A DNA stretch of 64,000 nucleotides from Nitrospira sp. (GTDB lineage: Bacteria; Nitrospirota; Nitrospiria; Nitrospirales; Nitrospiraceae). The stretch spans positions 62,001 to 126,000 of the forward strand of contig JAUYAO010000041.1 in assembly GCA_030692565.1 (NCBI GenBank), written 5' to 3'. How positions within the stretch are numbered: position 1 is the first letter of the stretch; each line of letters starts with the position of its first letter. The position numbers and the translations under genes were made by a program. A model generated the notes under the pieces. It had not been told where the DNA came from, ran no database searches, and saw only the letters and a list, made by a program, of their open reading frames with translations. This document shows, one piece after another, positions 5,622-50,961 of this stretch.

Positions 5622-6358
5622 CCAGCATCATGAGCACCAGTCCTGCGCCAACCGCATCAGATCCGCGTCCCTATGTCCCCGAACGACGGGGAATTTTGTT
5701 CATTATTTCGGCGCCGTCCGGAACGGGCAAGACGACACTCTGCAAACAAATTACCGCCTCGGTACCGGGAATTTGGCATTCGGTCTCCTATACCACCAGG
5801 CAGCCGCGCCCCGGTGAAGAACACGGACGGGAATACTTCTTCATCGAAGAGAAAATCTTTCAGGACATGGTGGCCAAAAACGAGTTCATGGAATATGCCC
5901 ATGTGTACGGCAACTGGTACGGCACTCCGCGCAAGGCTCTGATGGACAAGATGGAGCAGGGGATCGACGTTCTGCTGGAAATCGACGTTCAGGGCGCCTT
6001 GCAGATCAAGAAGAAGGTGCAGGACGCGGTGTATATCTTCATCCTGCCGCCCTCAATGGAAACATTGCGCACCAGGCTCCAGAGCAGGGCCTCCGACACC
6101 CCGGAGGAAATTCAGCGCCGATTACAGAAGGTGAAGGAGGAGGTGTGGAGTTACCGCGAGTACTACTACATCGTGCGTAACGACAACCTGGAACAGTCTC
6201 TTAAAGAACTCCAGAGCGTGTTCCTGGCGGAACGCCTCAAGACGAAGCGACTGGATATGCATTGGCTCGAACAGAACTTCATTCTCGAGAAAGAATCCAA
6301 ACCGGGAGATCGTGACCAATCTTCCATTGCTAAAGGGAGTACCGCGCACCATGATTGA
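5618..6358 (+). CDS. gmk: Guanylate kinase
   Basis: Phosphorylates GMP to GDP with ATP. The P-loop SAPSGTGKTT lies at residues 31-40, followed by the GMP-binding SYTTRQPRPGE and the GREYFFI segment, and LEIDVQGA in the core. At 246 residues it is longer than the ~205 usual: it carries an N-terminal extension of ~25 residues and an unconserved charged C-terminal tail. A second ATG at 5630 (MSTSPAPT) is an alternative start. ATGA overlap with yicC. Confidence 0.94.
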   Translation: MTSIMSTSPAPTASDPRPYVPERRGILFIISAPSGTGKTTLCKQITASVPGIWHSVSYTTRQPRPGEEHGREYFFIEEKIFQDMVAKNEFMEYAHVYGNWYGTPRKALMDKMEQGIDVLLEIDVQGALQIKKKVQDAVYIFILPPSMETLRTRLQSRASDTPEEIQRRLQKVKEEVWSYREYYYIVRNDNLEQSLKELQSVFLAERLKTKRLDMHWLEQNFILEKESKPGDRDQSSIAKGSTAHHD

Positions 6359-45037: not shown

Positions 45038-45067
45038 TTGACTTCCCCTTCCCCGCCCTCCTAGATT
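45038..45067 (+). promoter_or_regulatory. Duplicate of the dnaE promoter (copy 1)
   Basis: TTGACT, 18-base spacer, TAGATT, then 6 bases to ATG. Same layout and nearly the same sequence as the genuine dnaE promoter at 52809; -35 intact and -10 with one change. Confidence 0.65.
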
Positions 45068-45073
45068 CCGACC

Positions 45074-45145
45074 ATGGCTTCGTCCTTCGTTCATCTCCAC
45101 CTGCACACCCAATTCAGCCTCCTCGACGGCGCTCAATCGGACTGA
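45074..45145 (+). pseudogene. dnaE: Duplicated 5' end of dnaE (copy 1)
   Basis: Reads MASSFVHLHLHTQFSLLDGA exactly as DnaE, then a stop after 23 codons. Removing the one extra C after the GCT codon 20 restores the DnaE frame (AAT CGG ...), so it is a frame-shifted dnaE head, not a separate gene. Homology ends within a few bases of the stop. The changes in the first 20 codons are synonymous relative to dnaE. Confidence 0.9.
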
Positions 45146-45219
45146 TCCGCCACTTCCGCTTTTCAGGAGCCCCGCGCACAGGTGATACCGTATCGCCCTC
45201 GGAAAGGGTCTGTCGGCTG

Positions 45220-45228
45220 TGGTAATAT
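45220..45228 (+). promoter_or_regulatory. Extended -10 promoter of brnT
   Basis: TGG-TAATAT ends 8 bases before the brnT GTG. No clear -35 and no ribosome-binding site, consistent with a leaderless transcript. Confidence 0.45.
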
Positions 45229-45236
45229 TCTGAGTC

Positions 45237-45530
45237 GTGACAACTCGACACTATGGGGATTTTGAATGGGATGAGACGAAGGCCCTCGCAAACCGTCTCA
45301 AACATGACGTGCCCTTTGAGGAAGCCCTCACGGCTTTCGCAGATCCACTGGCGATTGATGCGCCCGACCGATATATACCGGGACGGCTTGTATTGATTGG
45401 CCATTCGGCGCGTGGCCGGATACTATTCGTCGTGTATGAAGAACGAGGAGACCGCATTCGGTTAATCAGCGCGCGAAAAGCCTCGCCCATCCAAAGGAGA
45501 AAATATGAAAAAGACCTCGACGCATCGTAA
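45237..45530 (+). CDS. brnT: BrnT family toxin
   Basis: 97 residues, GTG start. BrnT is a RelE-fold ribonuclease toxin. Pattern: FEWDETKALANRLKHDVPFEEA, FADP, RLVLIGHSARGRILFVVYEE and ISARKASPIQRRKYE, which are the family landmarks. The antitoxin frame starts inside its 3' end (26-base overlap), so expression is coupled. First cassette after the duplicated dnaE head. Confidence 0.9.
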   Translation: MTTRHYGDFEWDETKALANRLKHDVPFEEALTAFADPLAIDAPDRYIPGRLVLIGHSARGRILFVVYEERGDRIRLISARKASPIQRRKYEKDLDAS

Positions 45531-45774
45531 GCCAATTCCGCCGGAAGACGCGTTAGAGCGATACGATTGGGGCAAGGCCGTCCGAGGGCGACACGCACAT
45601 CGTTTTCCGAAAGGCGCCCTCGCCGTAGTCATCGCTCCTGAACTACGGCGGCACTTCTCGACGGCGGATGCTGTCAACGACGGATTGCGCGTGTTGCTGA
45701 AGATGGCGACGCTGGCAAAGACGAGTAGTCCGCCTAAGCAGATGCGGACAGGGAAACGGCGAGAGGTCGCATAA
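45505..45774 (+). CDS. BrnA-position antitoxin
   Basis: 89 residues immediately overlapping brnT. Contains RYDWGKAVRGRHAHRF at the N-terminus and a C-terminal helical segment (FSTADAVNDGLRVLLKMA), consistent with an antitoxin that binds DNA through a ribbon-helix-helix-like part. Assignment rests largely on position after BrnT; sequence similarity to canonical BrnA is not obvious to me. Confidence 0.65.
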   Translation: MKKTSTHRKPIPPEDALERYDWGKAVRGRHAHRFPKGALAVVIAPELRRHFSTADAVNDGLRVLLKMATLAKTSSPPKQMRTGKRREVA

Positions 45775-45869
45775 GCTGGCCCAGGGCTGCACACGCCATG
45801 CTATGTTGCCGAGATCGAGATGATTTGGGGTCAGACATGAGTATTGACTTTCGTCCTACCAGCCTCAGT

Positions 45870-45950
45870 CTAAGCAGCGGTCAGCGGGGAGATGTGATTG
45901 ATCGTACCCTTGATGTTCCGCGCAGCCTCCCACAAGTCCACCGCACGCTG
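45870..45950 (-). pseudogene. higA: 3' fragment of higA
   Basis: Encodes only the last 26 residues of the HigA protein found at 51320 (from the QRAVDLWEAARN segment to the stop). It breaks off at GCTG and is joined to the REP copy R1. DNA just beyond R1 (about 45984-46047) matches the region upstream of higB (about 51964-52027). So a higBA locus lost its centre here and has a REP end at the scar. Confidence 0.85.
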
Positions 45951-45958
45951 AGGAAAGA

Positions 45959-45983
45959 GATGGGGTCATTGCTTGACTTTGCA
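45959..45983 (+). repeat. REP/RAYT end sequence, copy R1
   Basis: GATGGGGTCATTGCTTGACT and TTGCA following; identical to the left end of the RAYT element at 49295. Lies between the higA fragment and the DUF6883/DUF4926 cassette. Confidence 0.9.
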
Positions 45984-46309
45984 CCTCGGCTCGGACCGAC
46001 AGGTATGAACCGCCGCACAGGACAGTTTCGCGGCGCGGGGCGGGAGTCTGGTTCATCTGGTCTGGTTCGTCTGTCTCGTGTGGTTGGTTCGATGAACACG
46101 AGAGACAAGACAGATCCGCAGACCGGAGAAACCACCCTGGGGTCGTCGTTCGGAAAGCGTTGATCGTCCGGCTACCAGCTGCCCCATATTTCCTACAGCC
46201 TCCAATCTGTGTAGAATACCGCAACGCTCGTCCCCTCCATCCTCACTCCGCCTTCAGCGGCAAGTGATGAATCGAGAGGAGCGCCAAGGCCACGCATTCC
46301 GCGATCTCA

Positions 46310-46660
46310 ATGACTATTCCCAACGCTGCCAACTGCATTGTCGAAGCAGAAAAGGTGAGGGACTATTTGCTCAACCTCTCTCATCCGGCAGGGAAGAGTA
46401 AGGCAGCATTCTTCACGATGATGGGTTTCCGGCAGCAAGACTGGGAAGTTTTGGCGACAGTCTTGGGCCAGATGGTGCGTAACTCTCCAGTGACAATAAG
46501 CATGACATCTCGCCATGGGCAGAAGTATATTGTAGACGGTGCGTTGGTCGCGCCAACTGGCCAACTGCCTCTCATTCGCACGGTGTGGGTTGTTGATACA
46601 GGAACCGATAGGCCGCGGTTGGTCACGGCCTATCCAATGAACCAGGAGTCACGATCATGA
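46310..46660 (+). CDS. DUF6883 family protein, putative toxin-like partner
   Basis: 116 residues: KVRDYLLNLSHPAGKSKAAFF, QQDWEVLATVL, GQKYIVDGALVAPTGQ and RTVWVVDTGTDRPRLVTAYP, which is the DUF6883 pattern. Function unknown. The ATGA overlap with DUF4926 and the place in an array of toxin-antitoxin pairs suggest a toxin-immunity or toxin-antitoxin cassette; that is inference. An upstream TAGAAT at about 46210 may be the promoter. Confidence 0.75.
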   Translation: MTIPNAANCIVEAEKVRDYLLNLSHPAGKSKAAFFTMMGFRQQDWEVLATVLGQMVRNSPVTISMTSRHGQKYIVDGALVAPTGQLPLIRTVWVVDTGTDRPRLVTAYPMNQESRS

Positions 46661-46887
46661 TTAAAGAGCATGACCTCGTTGTATTAGGAGCCGCTGTTCC
46701 TGATGAGGGTCTTGTGGCTGGCGATGTGGGGACCGTCGTCCATATTTATCGTGACGGCCAGGCGTTCGAGGTAGAATTCACTACGCTGGAAGGTAAAACC
46801 GCAGCGGTCATCACGGTCGAAGCCTCACAAGTCCGCCCGGTTGGACAACGAGAAATCTCGCACGCCCGCGAACTGGCTCCTAGATGA
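46657..46887 (+). CDS. DUF4926 family protein
   Basis: 76 residues, beta-rich: EHDLVVLGAAVPDEGLVAGDVGT and VVHIYRDGQAFEVEF, typical of DUF4926, which has an SH3-like fold. DUF4926 and DUF6883 genes are often neighbours in my recollection. Translationally coupled to the preceding gene. Candidate antitoxin or immunity protein. Confidence 0.75.
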   Translation: MIKEHDLVVLGAAVPDEGLVAGDVGTVVHIYRDGQAFEVEFTTLEGKTAAVITVEASQVRPVGQREISHARELAPR

Positions 46888-46899
46888 TTTAGGAGCCAG
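46873..46899. other. Perfect 10-bp hairpin at the DUF4926 3' end
   Basis: CTGGCTCCTA-GATGATT-TAGGAGCCAG; the DUF4926 stop codon lies in the loop. No T-run follows, so termination is uncertain. Confidence 0.55.
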
Positions 46900-46929
46900 C
46901 ATAGAAAGGAAAAAGAGATGGTAAAAAGA

Positions 46930-46973
46930 GATGGGGTCATTAAAAAGAGATGGGGTCATTGCTTGACTTTGCA
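46930..46973 (+). repeat. REP/RAYT end sequence, copy R2 with tandem partial copy
   Basis: GATGGGGTCATT occurs at 46930 and again at 46949, each preceded by AAAAAGA; the second continues GCTTGACTTTGCA. So the outer 12 bases plus about 7 flanking bases are tandemly duplicated. It lies between the DUF4926 and DUF4258 cassettes. Confidence 0.9.
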
Positions 46974-47168
46974 TCTTGACCGCCACGCTTCCATGATGGA
47001 GGTCCCTTTCTCTAACTCATCCCACTTCTCAGCAGCGGTAGACCCTACCACCTTGTTACGTTCAGCAATGCCCCCTTCTTGAAAATCTGGGCCATTGACT
47101 CCGTCTAGACTCCATCTTATAAGCTTACGGCGTTGACGCTTCCGAACCTGGACAGGAACTACCAATAG

Positions 47169-47486
47169 ATGGATGAGGCTGAAGTTCGTCGATGTGCGGC
47201 CAATTGCCGATTCACGGACCACGCTCGAAAGGAGATGGACGAAGAGCCTTTGGGCCGCATTCACCTCGAAGAAGTCTTGCAGATAATCGAGACCGGTGAG
47301 ATCATCGAACAGTATCTTGACGATACCCCGTATGCGAGCTGTCTTCTCTTGGGATACACGCGATCCGGGAGGCCGCTCCATCTCGTCTGTGCGCCGGTTT
47401 CTGCTGAGGAGCGGTTAATCGTGATCACGACCTACCAGCCTGACCCAATCCGATGGGAACTGGATTTGCGAAGGAGGAAGCGCTAA
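47169..47486 (+). CDS. DUF4258 family toxin
   Basis: 105 residues: RFTDHARKEMDEEPLGRIHLEEVLQ, TGEIIEQY, LLGYTRSGRPLHLVCAP and VITTYQPDPIRWE, the DUF4258 (RelE/MqsR-like) pattern. Its stop overlaps the start of a YgiT-type zinc-finger gene (TAATG), the usual order of such toxin-antitoxin pairs. The region from R2 to here is duplicated downstream of R3, where the copy is truncated. Confidence 0.85.
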   Translation: MDEAEVRRCAANCRFTDHARKEMDEEPLGRIHLEEVLQIIETGEIIEQYLDDTPYASCLLLGYTRSGRPLHLVCAPVSAEERLIVITTYQPDPIRWELDLRRRKR

Positions 47487-47716
47487 TGCACTGCGTCATC
47501 TGCAAGAGAGGCACGGTCAAATCGGGAACAGTCCAGGCGGAGCTTCGAGTCGGAACCGACCACCTCATGGTGCCGGTAGAAACGGAGGTGTGTGACGAAT
47601 GTGGGGAGGCCTATTACTCAACCGAGACTATGCGGCATCTCGAACAAGTGCGCGAAAACTTCCTCCGCAAAGTTATCGTTCCGCCCTCGGTCGGACACGT
47701 GTACCAGATTTCTTGA
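47486..47716 (+). CDS. YgiT-type zinc finger antitoxin (MqsA-like N-domain)
   Basis: 76 residues from ATG 47486, with GGAGGAAG upstream. Two CxxC pairs (CVICKRG and CDECGEAYY) form the YgiT zinc ribbon; the tail (EQVRENFLRKVI) is helical. It lacks the XRE DNA-binding domain of full MqsA. Partner of the DUF4258 toxin. Confidence 0.87.
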   Translation: MHCVICKRGTVKSGTVQAELRVGTDHLMVPVETEVCDECGEAYYSTETMRHLEQVRENFLRKVIVPPSVGHVYQIS

Positions 47717-47757
47717 CGATCACTGGAAAACTTCTAAGCGAGGGAAAGAGGGAAATG

Positions 47758-47782
47758 GATGGGGTCATTGCTTGGCTTTGCA
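47758..47782 (+). repeat. REP/RAYT end sequence, copy R3
   Basis: Same as R1 except for one change (TTGGCT for TTGACT). Followed by DNA homologous to that after R2 (47783 onward versus 46974 onward), so R2 and R3 begin duplicated units. Confidence 0.88.
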
Positions 47783-48006
47783 CCTCGGCACCACGCTCCC
47801 ATGATGGAGCTTCCCTCTCCAATTCCTCATCCCGCTTCTCTGCTGCACCACCTCTCACGGTGGCACGTTCCGCAATGACCGCTGCTTGACAGTCCGCTGC
47901 CATTGACTCTGTCTACGCTCCATTTTATACGCTTACGCGTGGAGCGTTCGCCATGAATCGGCTTACGCCGCTGACGATTTCAGGCCTGGATAGAAATTGC
48001 CCATAG

Positions 48007-48156
48007 ATGGATGAGACTGCCGTGCGTCGAGGTGCGGCCAATTGTCGATTTACGGATCACGCTCGAAAGGAGATGGACGAAGAGCCTTTGGGCCGCATTC
48101 ACGTCGAAGAAGTCTTGCAGATTATCGAGACCTGGAAGAAGAACAATGGGGTGTGA
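48007..48156 (+). pseudogene. Truncated copy of the DUF4258 gene
   Basis: 49 codons closely matching the first ~44 residues of the 47169 protein (RFTDHARKEMDEEPLGRIHVEEVLQIIET), then a switch at GAGACCTGGAAGAA into sequence that also occurs at 51239, ending at TGA. The C-terminal toxin core and its antitoxin are missing. The junction looks like recombination with a higA-linked segment. Confidence 0.85.
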
Positions 48157-48208
48157 GTATTGACCGAACCGCTTAGCCTTGTATTGCTTTCGTCCTACCG
48201 GCCTCAGT

Positions 48209-48475
48209 CTAAGCAGCGGTCAGCGGGGAGATGTGATTGATCGTACCCTTGATGTTCCGCGCAGCCTCCCACAAGTCCACCGCACGCTGGGCATTCAACC
48301 AGAATTCAGGGCTGTTGCCGAATAAACGAGAGAGTCGCAACGCCATCTCAGGACTCACCGCACGCCGCTCCCGCAGCAACTCATTCACCGTCTGGCGAGA
48401 CACCCGAAGAGACTTGGCAAAGCTGGATACGGTCAGGCCATACTCCGGCAAAAAATCCTCCCGCAGAAGGAGCAA
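48209..48475 (-). pseudogene. higA: higA truncated at its 5' end by a REP copy
   Basis: Matches the HigA at 51320 from REDFLPEYGLT to the stop with one substitution, but the first ~20 residues and the higB partner are gone; the break is at the R4 repeat. A TTG could restart translation at 48475. The helix-turn-helix (SSFAKSLRVSRQTVNELL) is intact, so a truncated antitoxin could still be made. Confidence 0.82.
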
Positions 48476-48477
48476 AA

Positions 48478-48522
48478 GATGGGGTCATTAAGCAAAAGAT
48501 GGGGTCATTGCTTGACTTTGCA
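48478..48522 (+). repeat. REP/RAYT end sequence, copy R4 with tandem partial copy
   Basis: GATGGGGTCATT at 48478 and 48499, each preceded by AGCAAAA; the second continues GCTTGACTTTGCA. As in R2, the outer bases plus ~7 bases of flank are duplicated, but with a different flank. Confidence 0.9.
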
Positions 48523-48640
48523 CTGCGCTCTGCCTACGCTCCGCCCCCATGGCTCGCCAACTTCGTATGGAATACTCCGCCGTCCCGGAGGGGAACAAGG
48601 AACTTGTTCCCCTCCCATCGTACGAAACGCGATGACCAAA
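48523..48640 (+). mobile_element. Deletion derivative of the RAYT element with a REP-like hairpin
   Basis: After R4 the DNA follows the left end of the RAYT element (CTGCGCTCTGCCTACGCTCC and the first codons MARQLRMEY), then diverges. A perfect 13-bp hairpin, GGAGGGGAACAAG-GAA-CTTGTTCCCCTCC, lies at 48587-48615. GGAG at the 5' foot is like the tetranucleotide found at REP hairpins. This looks like a non-autonomous relative of the element. Confidence 0.65.
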
Positions 48641-48748
48641 GAAATCGGCGACGACCTCGAGGCCGCCCTCGAACAGTTCCGGCTCAGTCACTGCCGACTT
48701 TGGCGATGGCGCGATGTCCGCGGATAATCCGAGCGAGATGCAGCCGAC

Positions 48749-49060
48749 ATGAAGATCATTCGCTCCATTGCTGGAATTCCTATTCGTCTGACTACCGAGC
48801 GCTTTGGGCATATCGCCAAGCGGCACCCTGAAATGGCGGATCAACAAGACCGTATTCTGGAGACCTTGGGGGCGCCTGATTACGTTCAAGAGGGCGACAG
48901 CGGAACCTGTATTGCTGTAAAGTCGTATCCGAACACGCCGTTGTCCCAGAAGTCTTGCGCGGTGGTGTATCGGGAACTGAACGACGTGGACGGATTTGTC
49001 GTCACCGAGTATTTCACGAGCAGGCCCGCTGTCTGGAGGAGGATTCTATGGAAGCCGTGA
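48749..49060 (+). CDS. Putative PBECR/RelE-like nuclease toxin
   Basis: 103 residues: PIRLTTERFGHIAKRHPEM, ILETLGAPDYVQEG and a C-terminal VVTEYFTSRPAVWRR. The pattern (RLTxERxxHI..HPEM) recalls the phage-barnase-EndoU-ColicinE5/D-RelE-like nuclease group. The exact family was not verified. It overlaps the DUF2283 gene by 13 bases, the usual toxin-antitoxin arrangement. Confidence 0.65.
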   Translation: MKIIRSIAGIPIRLTTERFGHIAKRHPEMADQQDRILETLGAPDYVQEGDSGTCIAVKSYPNTPLSQKSCAVVYRELNDVDGFVVTEYFTSRPAVWRRILWKP

Positions 49061-49275
49061 AGGTATTTGATAAGAAAGATGTGCCTCTCGATTGGGAATA
49101 CGATGACGATGCCGACACGCTCTATTTGAGTTTCGGCAAACCGAAGGCAGCTACGGGCCTCGATATCGGACAAGGCGTCATTGTTCGCTACGATGAACAG
49201 GCGTGCGAGGTGGTGGGGTTGACCATCGTCGGAGTCGGACGCCGGCTGGAAGAATACGTCAAGACGAAGGCCTGA
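49048..49275 (+). CDS. DUF2283 family antitoxin-like protein
   Basis: 75 residues from ATG 49048 (GGAGGA upstream). DUF2283 pattern: WEYDDDADTLYLSFGKPK, DIGQGVIVRYDE and VVGLTIVG. These small beta proteins commonly follow toxin-like genes and are predicted antitoxins. Overlaps the preceding gene. R5 begins about 20 bases after its stop. Confidence 0.83.
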   Translation: MEAVKVFDKKDVPLDWEYDDDADTLYLSFGKPKAATGLDIGQGVIVRYDEQACEVVGLTIVGVGRRLEEYVKTKA

Positions 49276-49294
49276 AGACGAATAAAAAGAAAGA

Positions 49295-50292
49295 GATGGG
49301 GTCATTGCTTGACTTTGCGCTGCGCTCTGCCTACGCTCCGCCCCCATGGCTCGCCAACTGCGCGTGGAATATCCCGGCGCACTCTACCACCTCACCGCGC
49401 GCGGCAATGATCAGCAACCGATCTTTCACGACGAGACCGACCGGCAGCATTTCCTGACATTGTTCGGTGACGAAATCCTCCAACAGCACTGGCGCTGTTA
49501 TGCCTATTGCCTGATGGGCAATCACTATCATCTGCTGCTCGAAACGCCTGAACCGAACCTGAGTCGCGGCATGCGACGCCTCAATGGGTCTTATACCCAG
49601 CGCTTTAATTGGCGACATCGCCGGGTCGGCCATCTGCTGCAAGGCCGATTCAAAAGTCTGGTCGTGGAGCGGGAAAGTTATCTCCTGGAACTCTGTCGGT
49701 ATGTGGTGCTGAATCCCGTTCGGGCGGGAATGGTTGTGGCTCCGCAGGAATGGATGTGGAGCAGTTATGGGGCGACGGCGGGGCTGCGCACGGCGCCGCC
49801 GTGGCTAGATGTGACGAGCGTGCTCGGTCTGTTTGATGCAGCCCAAGACCGGGCTCGGCAGCACTATCAGCAGTTCGTCGCGGACGGCGTCGGACGTCCG
49901 TCACCGTGGGCTCAAATCACCGGCCAGATTTTTTTAGGAAGCCCGGCATTTCGGGAGCGCATGGCCACGCTCCTGCCTGATCAACGACCGGCGAATGTAC
50001 CCTTAGCGCAAACTGATCCGACGCGGCTGGACGCGAGAGAAATCCTGAATCACGTCGCGGCAGTCTATGGGATTTCGACCGCAGCCATGGTCGCTCGTAC
50101 GCATCGAGAGGCCTACCAGACCGCTGTGTGGTTGTTGCGACGCGCCGCGAACGAACCGTTGAACCTGGTTGCCGTGCGATTCGGCGTGTCCGCTTCGCGG
50201 ATTTCGAAAATTCAAGACTCGGTTGAATCGACGCCCCTCACACCTCAGCAGCAAACGGTAATGGAGCGGTGCAAAGTCAAGCAATGACCCCA
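49295..50292 (+). mobile_element. Complete RAYT (REP-associated tyrosine transposase) element
   Basis: About 1 kb bounded by inverted copies of TGGGGTCATTGCTTGACTTT plus three more bases: R5 at 49295 on the left and R6 (complement) at 50270-50292 on the right. It encloses one transposase gene whose last codons lie inside R6. A 13-bp tandem repeat (CACTTCTGTGCTA) starts at the right edge. The element interrupts a third He_PIG gene. Outer-end copies R1-R4 occur upstream in the same orientation as R5. Confidence 0.85.
49346..50287 (+). CDS. REP-associated tyrosine transposase (IS200-like Y1 family)
   Basis: 313 residues. N-terminal Y1 (HUH) domain: MARQLRVEYPGALYHLTARG, HUH motif GNHYHLLLE (His60, His62) and the catalytic Tyr119 in CRYVVLNPVRAGM. 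The C-terminal half holds a DnaA-C-like helix-turn-helix (REILNHVAAVYG, AVRFGVSASRISKIQ). RAYTs bind and cleave single-stranded REP sequences. The reading frame ends in CKVKQ, encoded by the inverted terminal repeat, which also supplies its stop codon. All motifs are intact. Confidence 0.93.
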   Translation: MARQLRVEYPGALYHLTARGNDQQPIFHDETDRQHFLTLFGDEILQQHWRCYAYCLMGNHYHLLLETPEPNLSRGMRRLNGSYTQRFNWRHRRVGHLLQGRFKSLVVERESYLLELCRYVVLNPVRAGMVVAPQEWMWSSYGATAGLRTAPPWLDVTSVLGLFDAAQDRARQHYQQFVADGVGRPSPWAQITGQIFLGSPAFRERMATLLPDQRPANVPLAQTDPTRLDAREILNHVAAVYGISTAAMVARTHREAYQTAVWLLRRAANEPLNLVAVRFGVSASRISKIQDSVESTPLTPQQQTVMERCKVKQ

Positions 50293-50819
50293 CTTCTGTG
50301 CTACACTTCTGTGCTCCACTCGCAGCCACCGGGGGCACTTTGCCCTATTCCTGGTCAGTAACTCCGGCCTTGCCTAGTGGGTTGGTATTGAATGTCGTCT
50401 CTCCTGGAACCATAAGTGGTACGCCGCTCAGTGGTAGCGCTGGGACAAAGACCTATACCTTTACAGTCACAGATTCCACTTCACCGTTTAATCAAACAGC
50501 AACCAAGCTATTCTCTTTGACGATCAACCTTACGGTGCCCACGTTAGCAATCACATTTCCAACAGGCTCCACACTTCCAGACGCAAATGTAAACACCCTC
50601 TATCGTCAAACACTCCTCGCTTCAGGCGGCACCCCTCCCTACACATGGTCTGTCTCTCCTGCTCTGCCCACGTGGCTCCAGCTTGATGCCGCCACCGGAA
50701 TACTTACCGGTACGCCGACAGCCACAGCCACAATCACCCGAACATACACCGTTCGCGATTCTACATTGCCGACCAACCTCACCACTCCACGATCGATCAC
50801 CATTCGCGTAAGAAACTAG
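50293..50819 (+). pseudogene. C-terminal fragment of a third He_PIG protein
   Basis: Open frame of ~173 codons carrying one and a half He_PIG repeats (ATGGTLPYSWSVTPALPSGL, ASGGTPPYTWSVSPALPTWL) and a natural stop. It has no signal peptide, start or lipobox: the 5' part is absent up to the RAYT right end. The stop is followed, after ~17 bases, by the second duplicated dnaE promoter and head, just as for the intact gene at 43809. Confidence 0.82.
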
Positions 50820-50836
50820 CCATCTCCTCCATCGGT

Positions 50837-50944
50837 TTCACTTCCCCTTCCCTGCCCTCCGAGAATCCGGCCATGGCTTCGTCCTTCGTCCATCTTCATC
50901 TGCACACCCAATTCAGCCTTCTCGACGGCGCTCAATCAGATTGA
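50837..50944 (+). pseudogene. dnaE: Duplicated dnaE promoter and 5' end (copy 2)
   Basis: Promoter remnant TTCACT-18-GAGAAT (key -35 and -10 bases changed), then at 50873 MASSFVHLHLHTQFSLLDGA with synonymous differences from dnaE, the same extra C as copy 1, and a stop at 50942. Without the C it continues as NQIEP like DnaE. The shared insertion shows copies 1 and 2 derive from one another. Confidence 0.9.
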
Positions 50945-50961
50945 ACCACGACCCCCTGCAC

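Follow-up and report, generated by a model that had tools for sequence, protein, structure and literature searches.

What is a short sequence, repeated in one orientation, doing between the small toxin-antitoxin gene pairs of a bacterial chromosome? The question is raised by an array between purH and dnaE in Nitrospira sp. (assembly GCA_030692565.1, contig JAUYAO010000041.1). The sequence studied, here called the window, is the 64,000-nt stretch at 62,001-126,000 of the forward strand of that contig, and coordinates count from its first letter as position 1. The repeat, R, is the 20-mer GGGGTCATTGCTTGACTTTG; matches with up to 3 mismatches were accepted unless otherwise given. R is the terminal inverted repeat (TIR) of an element that carries its own tyrosine transposase gene (the element a TIRtron, the transposase TIRYT). 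We give about an even chance to the reading that these TIRYT ends work as joints between DNA fragments, bracketing toxin-antitoxin modules, by a nick-extend-join process. Genomes and loci are denoted by G and L numbers, the genome that holds the window being G000.

R cores were found on the + strand at 45962, 46952, 47761 (1 mismatch), 48501, and 49298 and on the - strand at 50272-50291. Five direct copies (R1-R5) and an inverted sixth (R6) thus lie inside 4.3 kb, as an earlier note on this DNA had proposed; the window holds six matches against a shuffle mean of 0.01 (100 shuffles). The sites that the note gave for R2 and R4 were real, but their starts lay 22-23 nt too far out because the note had included part of a further copy of the end (the stutter described below). 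The whole genome contains 31 copies of R and none of the reversed-pattern control, and 6 of the 31 are in the array (P of at least 6 in a given 4330-bp stretch, 9e-13). With a slightly wider pattern, the own-genome loci and the window yielded 6 inverted pairs, spanning 73-994 bp, and 20 solo copies. R was present at ≤1 mismatch in 15 of 79 Nitrospira genomes, and no exact match was found in viral contigs. The ends and the transposase gene of the array are as follows.

45951-45981, + strand: R1, an 11-nt leader AGGAAAGAGAT plus the 20-nt TIR core; truncates higA'
46910-46971, + strand: R2 with stutter, consisting of leader plus GG, leader plus GGGGTCAT, and leader plus full core (46952-46971)
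47750-47780, + strand: R3 with leader; core with 1 mismatch
48470-48520, + strand: R4 with stutter, consisting of leader plus GGGGTCATT and leader plus full core (48501-48520)
48521-48583, + strand: TIRYT 5' remnant inside R4
49287-49317, + strand: R5, left end of the complete TIRtron (pattern search)
49346-50287, + strand: TIRYT, a Y1 (HUH) transposase of 313 aa with a DnaA-DBD-like C-terminal domain (Pfam, NCBIfam, Foldseek)
50272-50315, - strand: R6, right end, with core at 50272-50291 and outer-flank stutter at 50292-50315

The identity of R follows from the one complete element, R5-TIRYT-R6, a 994-bp unit with inverted ends around a transposase gene whose final codons overlap R6. Pfam and NCBIfam profile scans, used for protein family assignment throughout the array, gave 36.6 bits to Y1_Tnp and 79.7 bits to REP_Tyr_transpos, the latter just under its cut-off of 80; the previous call of a REP (repetitive extragenic palindromic)-associated tyrosine transposase (RAYT) holds. 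Four relatives with 56-84% identity are encoded on contigs carrying the same end sequence, in Nitrospira, Gammaproteobacteria (two), and Deltaproteobacteria. H60, H62, and Y119 are invariant across the five proteins, and Y119 presumably has the role of the conserved tyrosine of a Y1 transposase. Foldseek with a weak TIRYT model matched ISDra2 and the REP-associated tyrosine transposase 4er8. The C terminus has confident helices and no separate Pfam domain match, and the DnaA DNA-binding domain 3pvp is among the structure matches, weakly (E 0.013). GGGGTCAT fits seven of the eight positions of the GGGGWSAS-type motif of TIRtron ends. The element is a TIRtron, a known kind in which a tyrosine transposase gene lies between terminal inverted repeats with such a motif (Di Nocera et al. 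2013, PMC3733652, in the sections on which we draw).

A classical REP hairpin was rejected as the identity of R. Folded as single-stranded DNA, R forms a 4-bp stem that 69 of 200 and 28 of 200 shuffles equal, and no GTAG tag was found at R ends in the array sequence. Of the earlier REP/RAYT identification, the RAYT-like element ends stand, and REP is corrected to a terminal inverted repeat. A plasmid search returned 23 records, none of which reached 60% identity or 80% coverage of the protein; a sequence search for a related solved structure returned none at E 0.01; and PADLOC matched none of 10 proteins. Where the flanks of paired elements were inspected, no target-site duplication was apparent by eye, and no contiguous empty site was found in 10 relatives for the elements on contigs 44 and 26.

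The solo copies stand at seams, at some of which a gene is cut. The fragments involved are listed here.

45848-45950, - strand: higA' fragment, 99% identical to 48187-48289
48007-48156, + strand: truncated DUF4258', with 86% identity across 179 nt to the copy in the R2 unit
48209-48475, - strand: higA'', 5' end cut by R4 (Pfam, NCBIfam)
50298-50819, + strand: He_PIG gene remnant, cut at R6

Each of R1-R4 is a left end without a partner, placed where gene fragments meet, and R1 and R4 truncate higA. The fragment higA' matches intact higA up to 45950, with AGGAAAGAGAT-R1 directly after; the homology of higA'' stops near 48466, the R4 leader follows about 4 nt further on, and R4 is succeeded by 60-odd nt of the TIRYT 5' end. 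R1 and R4 have different cut points in higA and different leaders. The R2-DUF4258 and R3-DUF4258' units resemble each other from R onward, and their left neighbours differ. R6 adjoins the He_PIG remnant with an edge less sharp than those at R1 and R4. On contig 26, the left end of another TIRYT element abuts orfA, apparently of IS3 type by our own reading, and homology to orfA stops 1 nt outside the duplicated leader. Judged from these alignments, R copies are at real breakpoints. We found no case in which R had simply inserted into an intact gene; where a comparison was possible, the other half of the gene was not seen beyond R.

The ends themselves carry a second signature. A left end consists of an outer leader of ~11 nt and the core, 31 nt in total. 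Positions -10 to -1 favor GGAAAGAGAT in 33 left-end copies, with a roughly flat profile further out, and a weaker A/G bias outside the core was seen in 24 right ends and 66 unclassed copies, these classes coming from a loose script rule. In R2, R4, R6, and many other copies the outer flank is repeated with a short aborted end prefix between, for example leader-GGGGTCAT-leader-GGGGTCATTGC; we call this a stutter. Of 122 distinct R copies, 20 had their outer 8 nt repeated no more than 36 nt away, versus 67 of 4280 random positions (p 8e-14). Nine of 27 copies in the own genome are stuttered, all nine with a spacer resembling the start of R; elsewhere the figure is 11 of 95, six of them judged clear (L195, L203, L210, L213, L215, and L225). 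Paired elements that were inspected had a stutter at one end at most. Across 235 genomes of the order, GGGGTCA-N8-17-GGGGTCA gave 174 hits (105 genomes) versus 32 for the backward pattern. Among readable pairs, flank duplication was seen in 16 of the 20 whose second copy runs on into a TIR versus 10 of the 35 others (p 3e-4). As a sequence pattern, the stutter suggests that the end is nicked and copied repeatedly.

From these observations we infer a sequence of nicking, extension, and joining by TIRYT. The transposase would nick the outer edge of the leader. The free 3' end of the flank would then be extended over the leader and the first core bases and rejoined, leaving a stuttered end. Alternatively, the broken end might be joined to other DNA, in which case the element end would become the joint between unrelated fragments. 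Toxin-antitoxin modules would be bracketed by such joints both at purH-dnaE, a hotspot of gene capture, and in further toxin-antitoxin islands. TIRYT ends would then be recombinogenic joints in such islands, a variant of the known TIRtron kind. A bolder version appears unlikely to us, namely that TIRYT elements form a distinct system of toxin-antitoxin mobilization whose ends are nicked, copied, and joined singly, with arrays in several phyla and the stutter as the scar of nick-extend-religate events.

Toxin-antitoxin genes also accompany R elsewhere. They occupied 11 of 17 short R-to-R intervals outside the window versus 1-2 of 48 control intervals (one-sided Fisher p 1e-7 to 9e-7). An interval was defined by neighbouring R copies 350-1700 bp apart on Nitrospira-group and gammaproteobacterial contigs. 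Loci L188-L230 and L066-L080 gave 22 intervals, of which six TIRYT units or remnants were dropped (L200, L209, L219, L223, L067 8243-8627, and L069). Loci L041-L065 and L081-L085 added one interval, in G002 and without toxin-antitoxin genes, three TIRYT units being dropped (G059, G069, and G074), so that the tally covers L041-L085 (as listed) and L188-L230. L228 and L191a were counted on an antitoxin hit alone and L220 by homology to a Pfam-confirmed ParE. Controls were 48 one-kb intervals taken from these loci, no closer than 1.5 kb to an R copy and with L196 excluded; 64 of their 100 open reading frames (ORFs) were scanned (≤175 aa, without N), and the hits were a DUF5615 and an RHH_1 that is probably NikR.

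The Nitrospira-group intervals hold TacA/GNAT, DUF433/DUF5615 (twice), RelE/HTH, TumE, an Unstab_antitox gene, and RelBE (twice). One gammaproteobacterial contig has four direct R copies, two of them at 3 mismatches, with an RHH antitoxin in one gap and RelB/ParE/PIN in another; a further gammaproteobacterial interval contains RelB/ParE. Six intervals lack toxin-antitoxin genes: L197, the second of L203, L066, the first of L067, G002 (a lipoprotein gene by eye, with no Pfam scan), and L075 (an HTH_3 hit only). Four other own-genome copies lie near ParE, PIN, ParE/Phd, or DUF433 genes. The recurrence of R with toxin-antitoxin genes in distant bacteria suggests that element ends help assemble rows of genes. 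R also lies just downstream of related lipoprotein genes (protein end PIW-H/R-x-Y) at three places in two species (G069 L082 near 6011-6028, G002 L085 near 6421, and G002 L084 10843-11813), and such genes may also be recurrent neighbours of R.

The four gaps of the window (R1-R2, R2-R3, R3-R4, and R4-R5) were the discovery set and stand outside the count of 17; all hold toxin-antitoxin genes or remnants. The remaining features of the array are given below.

45237-45530, + strand: BrnT toxin (Pfam)
45505-45774, + strand: BrnA-like antitoxin ORF (no Pfam match; assigned by position)
45827-45850, + strand: end of a second TIR family, GGGGTCAGACATGAGTATTGACTT, left of higA'
46026-46172, + strand: 147-nt strongly folding intergenic repeat
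46310-46887, + strand: DUF6883/DUF4926 pair (Pfam)
47169-47716, + strand: DUF4258/YgiT (MqsA-like) pair (Pfam, NCBIfam)
48749-49275, + strand: PBECR2-like/DUF2283 pair (Pfam)

Profile matches agreed with the earlier assignments of BrnT, DUF6883, DUF4926, DUF4258, HigA, and DUF2283. Others stood in part: YgiT passed the YgiT_finger cut-off but missed those for MqsA, BrnA is present as an ORF by position but without a Pfam match, and the PBECR-like call has a PBECR2 match only below the cut-off (20 versus 27.1 bits). A promoter and terminator scan of the array gave about twice the shuffled means. The 147-nt repeat (fold of -57.7 kcal/mol) recurs in Nitrospira, with seven copies in 12 kb of G019 (L185), and by eye the left edge of some copies carries TIR-like motifs. 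Its palindrome does not look like an attC site, attC core motifs not being seen at its ends in our own reading. The second TIR family, GGGGTCAGGCATGAGTATTGACTT, recurs in G206, another genus of the order (L285, L287-L289, L291, and L292), with the same stutter in most of those loci. A segment of ~45 nt at 48639-48684, upstream of the PBECR module, has matches in 16 other Nitrospira genomes, for the most part not near PBECR.

The locus was then compared among relatives. In the 13 genomes with both genes in the stretches fetched, the start-to-start distance from purH to dnaE is 12.2 kb here and 11.1, 10.2, 9.2, 7.2, 6.6, 5.2, 4.9, 4.6, 1.5, 1.4, 1.3, and 0.23 kb in the other 12. G068, G023, and G014, three of the nearest relatives at dnaE, had no R at ≤1 mismatch; the stretches fetched from them contained no match at E 1e-4 to window 46173-48112 or 48467-50330, and the DUF6883, DUF4258, and PBECR modules were absent from their purH-dnaE locus. 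The array is thus not invariant, a possibility that the earlier note had raised against its own proposal: R at ≤1 mismatch and these modules are missing in the three genomes, and the interval ranges from 0.23 to 12.2 kb. HigBA is present in all three and BrnT/BrnA also in G068; G068 and G014 have degenerate R-like sequences (4 edits) between higB and the next dnaE copy. Cargo in the relatives is mixed, with He_PIG proteins, OmpA, dehydrogenases, GTPases, and PIN domains among the 25 commonest families of 50 ORFs scanned. No strain pair was found that shows cassette loss by recombination between two direct R copies.

Fragments of the dnaE 5' end (here the leader plus ~75 nt of coding sequence) lie at 45038-45150 and 50835-50947, upstream of the true dnaE (52845), and between modules in G068, G023, G039, G013, G031, G006, and G040. 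A single site-specific attachment point in dnaE is unlikely because the 3' breakpoints of the fragments differ. They may reflect DNA capture by recombination anchored in dnaE.

Several points weigh against joints made by TIRYT. At least two joints lack R: truncated DUF4258' meets the downstream sequence of higA at a shared stretch near GCAGATTA, and the dnaE 5' fragments between other modules form further seams of this kind. No clean empty site with both flanks was found from which an insertion could be reconstructed. The core of the TIRYT structural model has low confidence (mean predicted local distance difference test score, 54). Some of the 174 tandem GGGGTCA hits are coding or other repeats, and the 10 flank-duplicated pairs among the 35 others include several that are inner parts of TIR stutters, by eye. 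The stutter could also come from replication slippage at a stalled fork, for which no transposase is needed. Finally, R occurs at many loci without toxin-antitoxin genes, in the own genome beside a glyoxalase, helicases, RHS, and a nuclease homologue. The earlier note had named even scatter over the genome as a concern; R is scattered at such loci, although the four own-genome copies mentioned above lie near toxin-antitoxin genes.

Passive co-accumulation is the rival that survives best, as a possible though somewhat unlikely explanation. Here TIR elements and toxin-antitoxin genes would merely collect in permissive intergenic hotspots such as purH-dnaE, and R would resemble punctuation only because the short gaps left by small modules tolerate insertion. 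That the locus receives many gene types in relatives fits this explanation, as do the R copies beside other genes, the module homologues without R described below, and the presence of the second TIR family and the 147-nt repeat between modules. However, the enrichment is strong against controls from the same contigs, genes are truncated at R ends, and the R2 and R3 units are homologous from R onward.

A true cassette system is an improbable alternative. TIRYT would use one or two TIRs around a module to move or duplicate it, in the manner of a miniature inverted-repeat transposable element (MITE) or by one-ended transposition, and the array would grow by TIR-led cassettes. The R2-DUF4258 and R3-DUF4258' units, both starting at R, and the gammaproteobacterial contig with four direct copies and two filled gaps speak for it, but the checked homologues of four modules do not. 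No R-like sequence accompanied PBECR/DUF2283, DUF4258/YgiT, or DUF6883/DUF4926 homologues in other genomes (L170-L184), nor the four of four RelE/HTH homologues of the G042 array that were checked, weaker or partial ones (e.g., G173 and G021) lying outside that check; a genome scan for homologues of this array gave many short repeat matches. R is not a constant part of the cassette, because the checked homologues lack it. In G042 itself, a TIRYT remnant that includes its right end comes after YgiT, here too on the upstream side of dnaE; in G019, an end of the second TIR family comes after DUF4926.

A further point in favor comes from RelBE, where one end is doubtful. Among eight matched genomes of a sister genus, a downstream R is recognizable in G150, G153, and G146 and degenerate in G164 (on a separate contig), hence in up to four of eight. 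This is probably one inherited locus, since most share the right flank. A tandem RelBE copy in G146 was set aside because it lies next to unread bases. In the own genome RelBE has a different context, beside a 3-mismatch R inside a TIRYT remnant. At contig 41 140233-141306 (L067 8234-9307), 28 kb downstream of the array, the TIRYT remnant is interrupted at this second, 3-mismatch R, and the RelBE module and a third R follow. The R-like end on the promoter side of RelBE may be a promoter (-35 box) rather than a TIR, since its TTGACC lies 17 nt from GATAAT. The placement of toxin-antitoxin genes also varies, some lying inside the TIR and some beyond paired TIRs, a further point against cassettes. 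The earlier proposal that the repeats are cassette boundaries is thus partly supported: the co-localization and the breakpoints at R stand, whereas movement of toxin-antitoxin genes as units remains hypothetical.

Segmental duplication by homologous recombination within one strain, as the sole source of the direct copies and with no role for TIRYT, is highly improbable: the near-identity of higA' and higA'' over 103 nt and the 93 nt that R4 and R5 share at 90% identity would fit it, but the 14% divergence between the R2 and R3 units across 179 nt is much too high for a recent duplication, R1 and R4 cut higA at different points behind different leaders, and solo copies are scattered over the genome.

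If the bolder version above were right, stuttered ends would be a genomic footprint of the action of a RAYT-like transposase on DNA in cells. An end that brackets toxin-antitoxin genes in unrelated bacteria and bears a signature of repeated, aborted copying gives access to two questions, how such enzymes act in cells and how toxin-antitoxin modules spread and pile up in chromosomes. Both become open to sequence surveys and to simple biochemistry on a single 313-aa protein and a 31-nt site. No title or abstract opening in a literature search that mostly did not cover subscription papers reported stuttered or duplicated ends or a link between RAYT, REPIN, or TIRYT and toxin-antitoxin genes.

The array resembles several known systems. 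Integron cassette arrays also have small genes in a row with repeats between them in one orientation, but R is a transposon end and, hardly folding, does not look like a folded attC. Mobile insertion cassettes carry passenger genes between transposon ends without a transposase; here, inward-facing ends around one passenger were seen only at RelBE, with one end doubtful. The dif (pdif) modules of Acinetobacter plasmids, in the part of that literature consulted, likewise have a short site recurring between small accessory modules, and the term toxin-antitoxin occurs there too, but pdif sites serve XerCD and R is a TIRYT element end. REP/RAYT and REPIN systems share a related transposase and dispersed ends (PMC6006769, in the portions used), and own-genome R pairs of 73-222 bp are REPIN-like; R differs in lacking a strong palindromic hairpin and a GTAG tag. 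Subclass 2.1 of TnpA-Y1, as presented in those portions, has the same Y1 core, C-terminal DnaA-like/HTH domain, and lack of REP hairpins at the gene, but the surroundings of dispersed TIR copies are not treated there (PMC6006769). TIRtrons have dispersed single and grouped TIR copies, as does R; the leader, the stuttered ends, and the link to toxin-antitoxin genes, which are not described in the sections of that account on which we draw (PMC3733652), distinguish the elements reported here.

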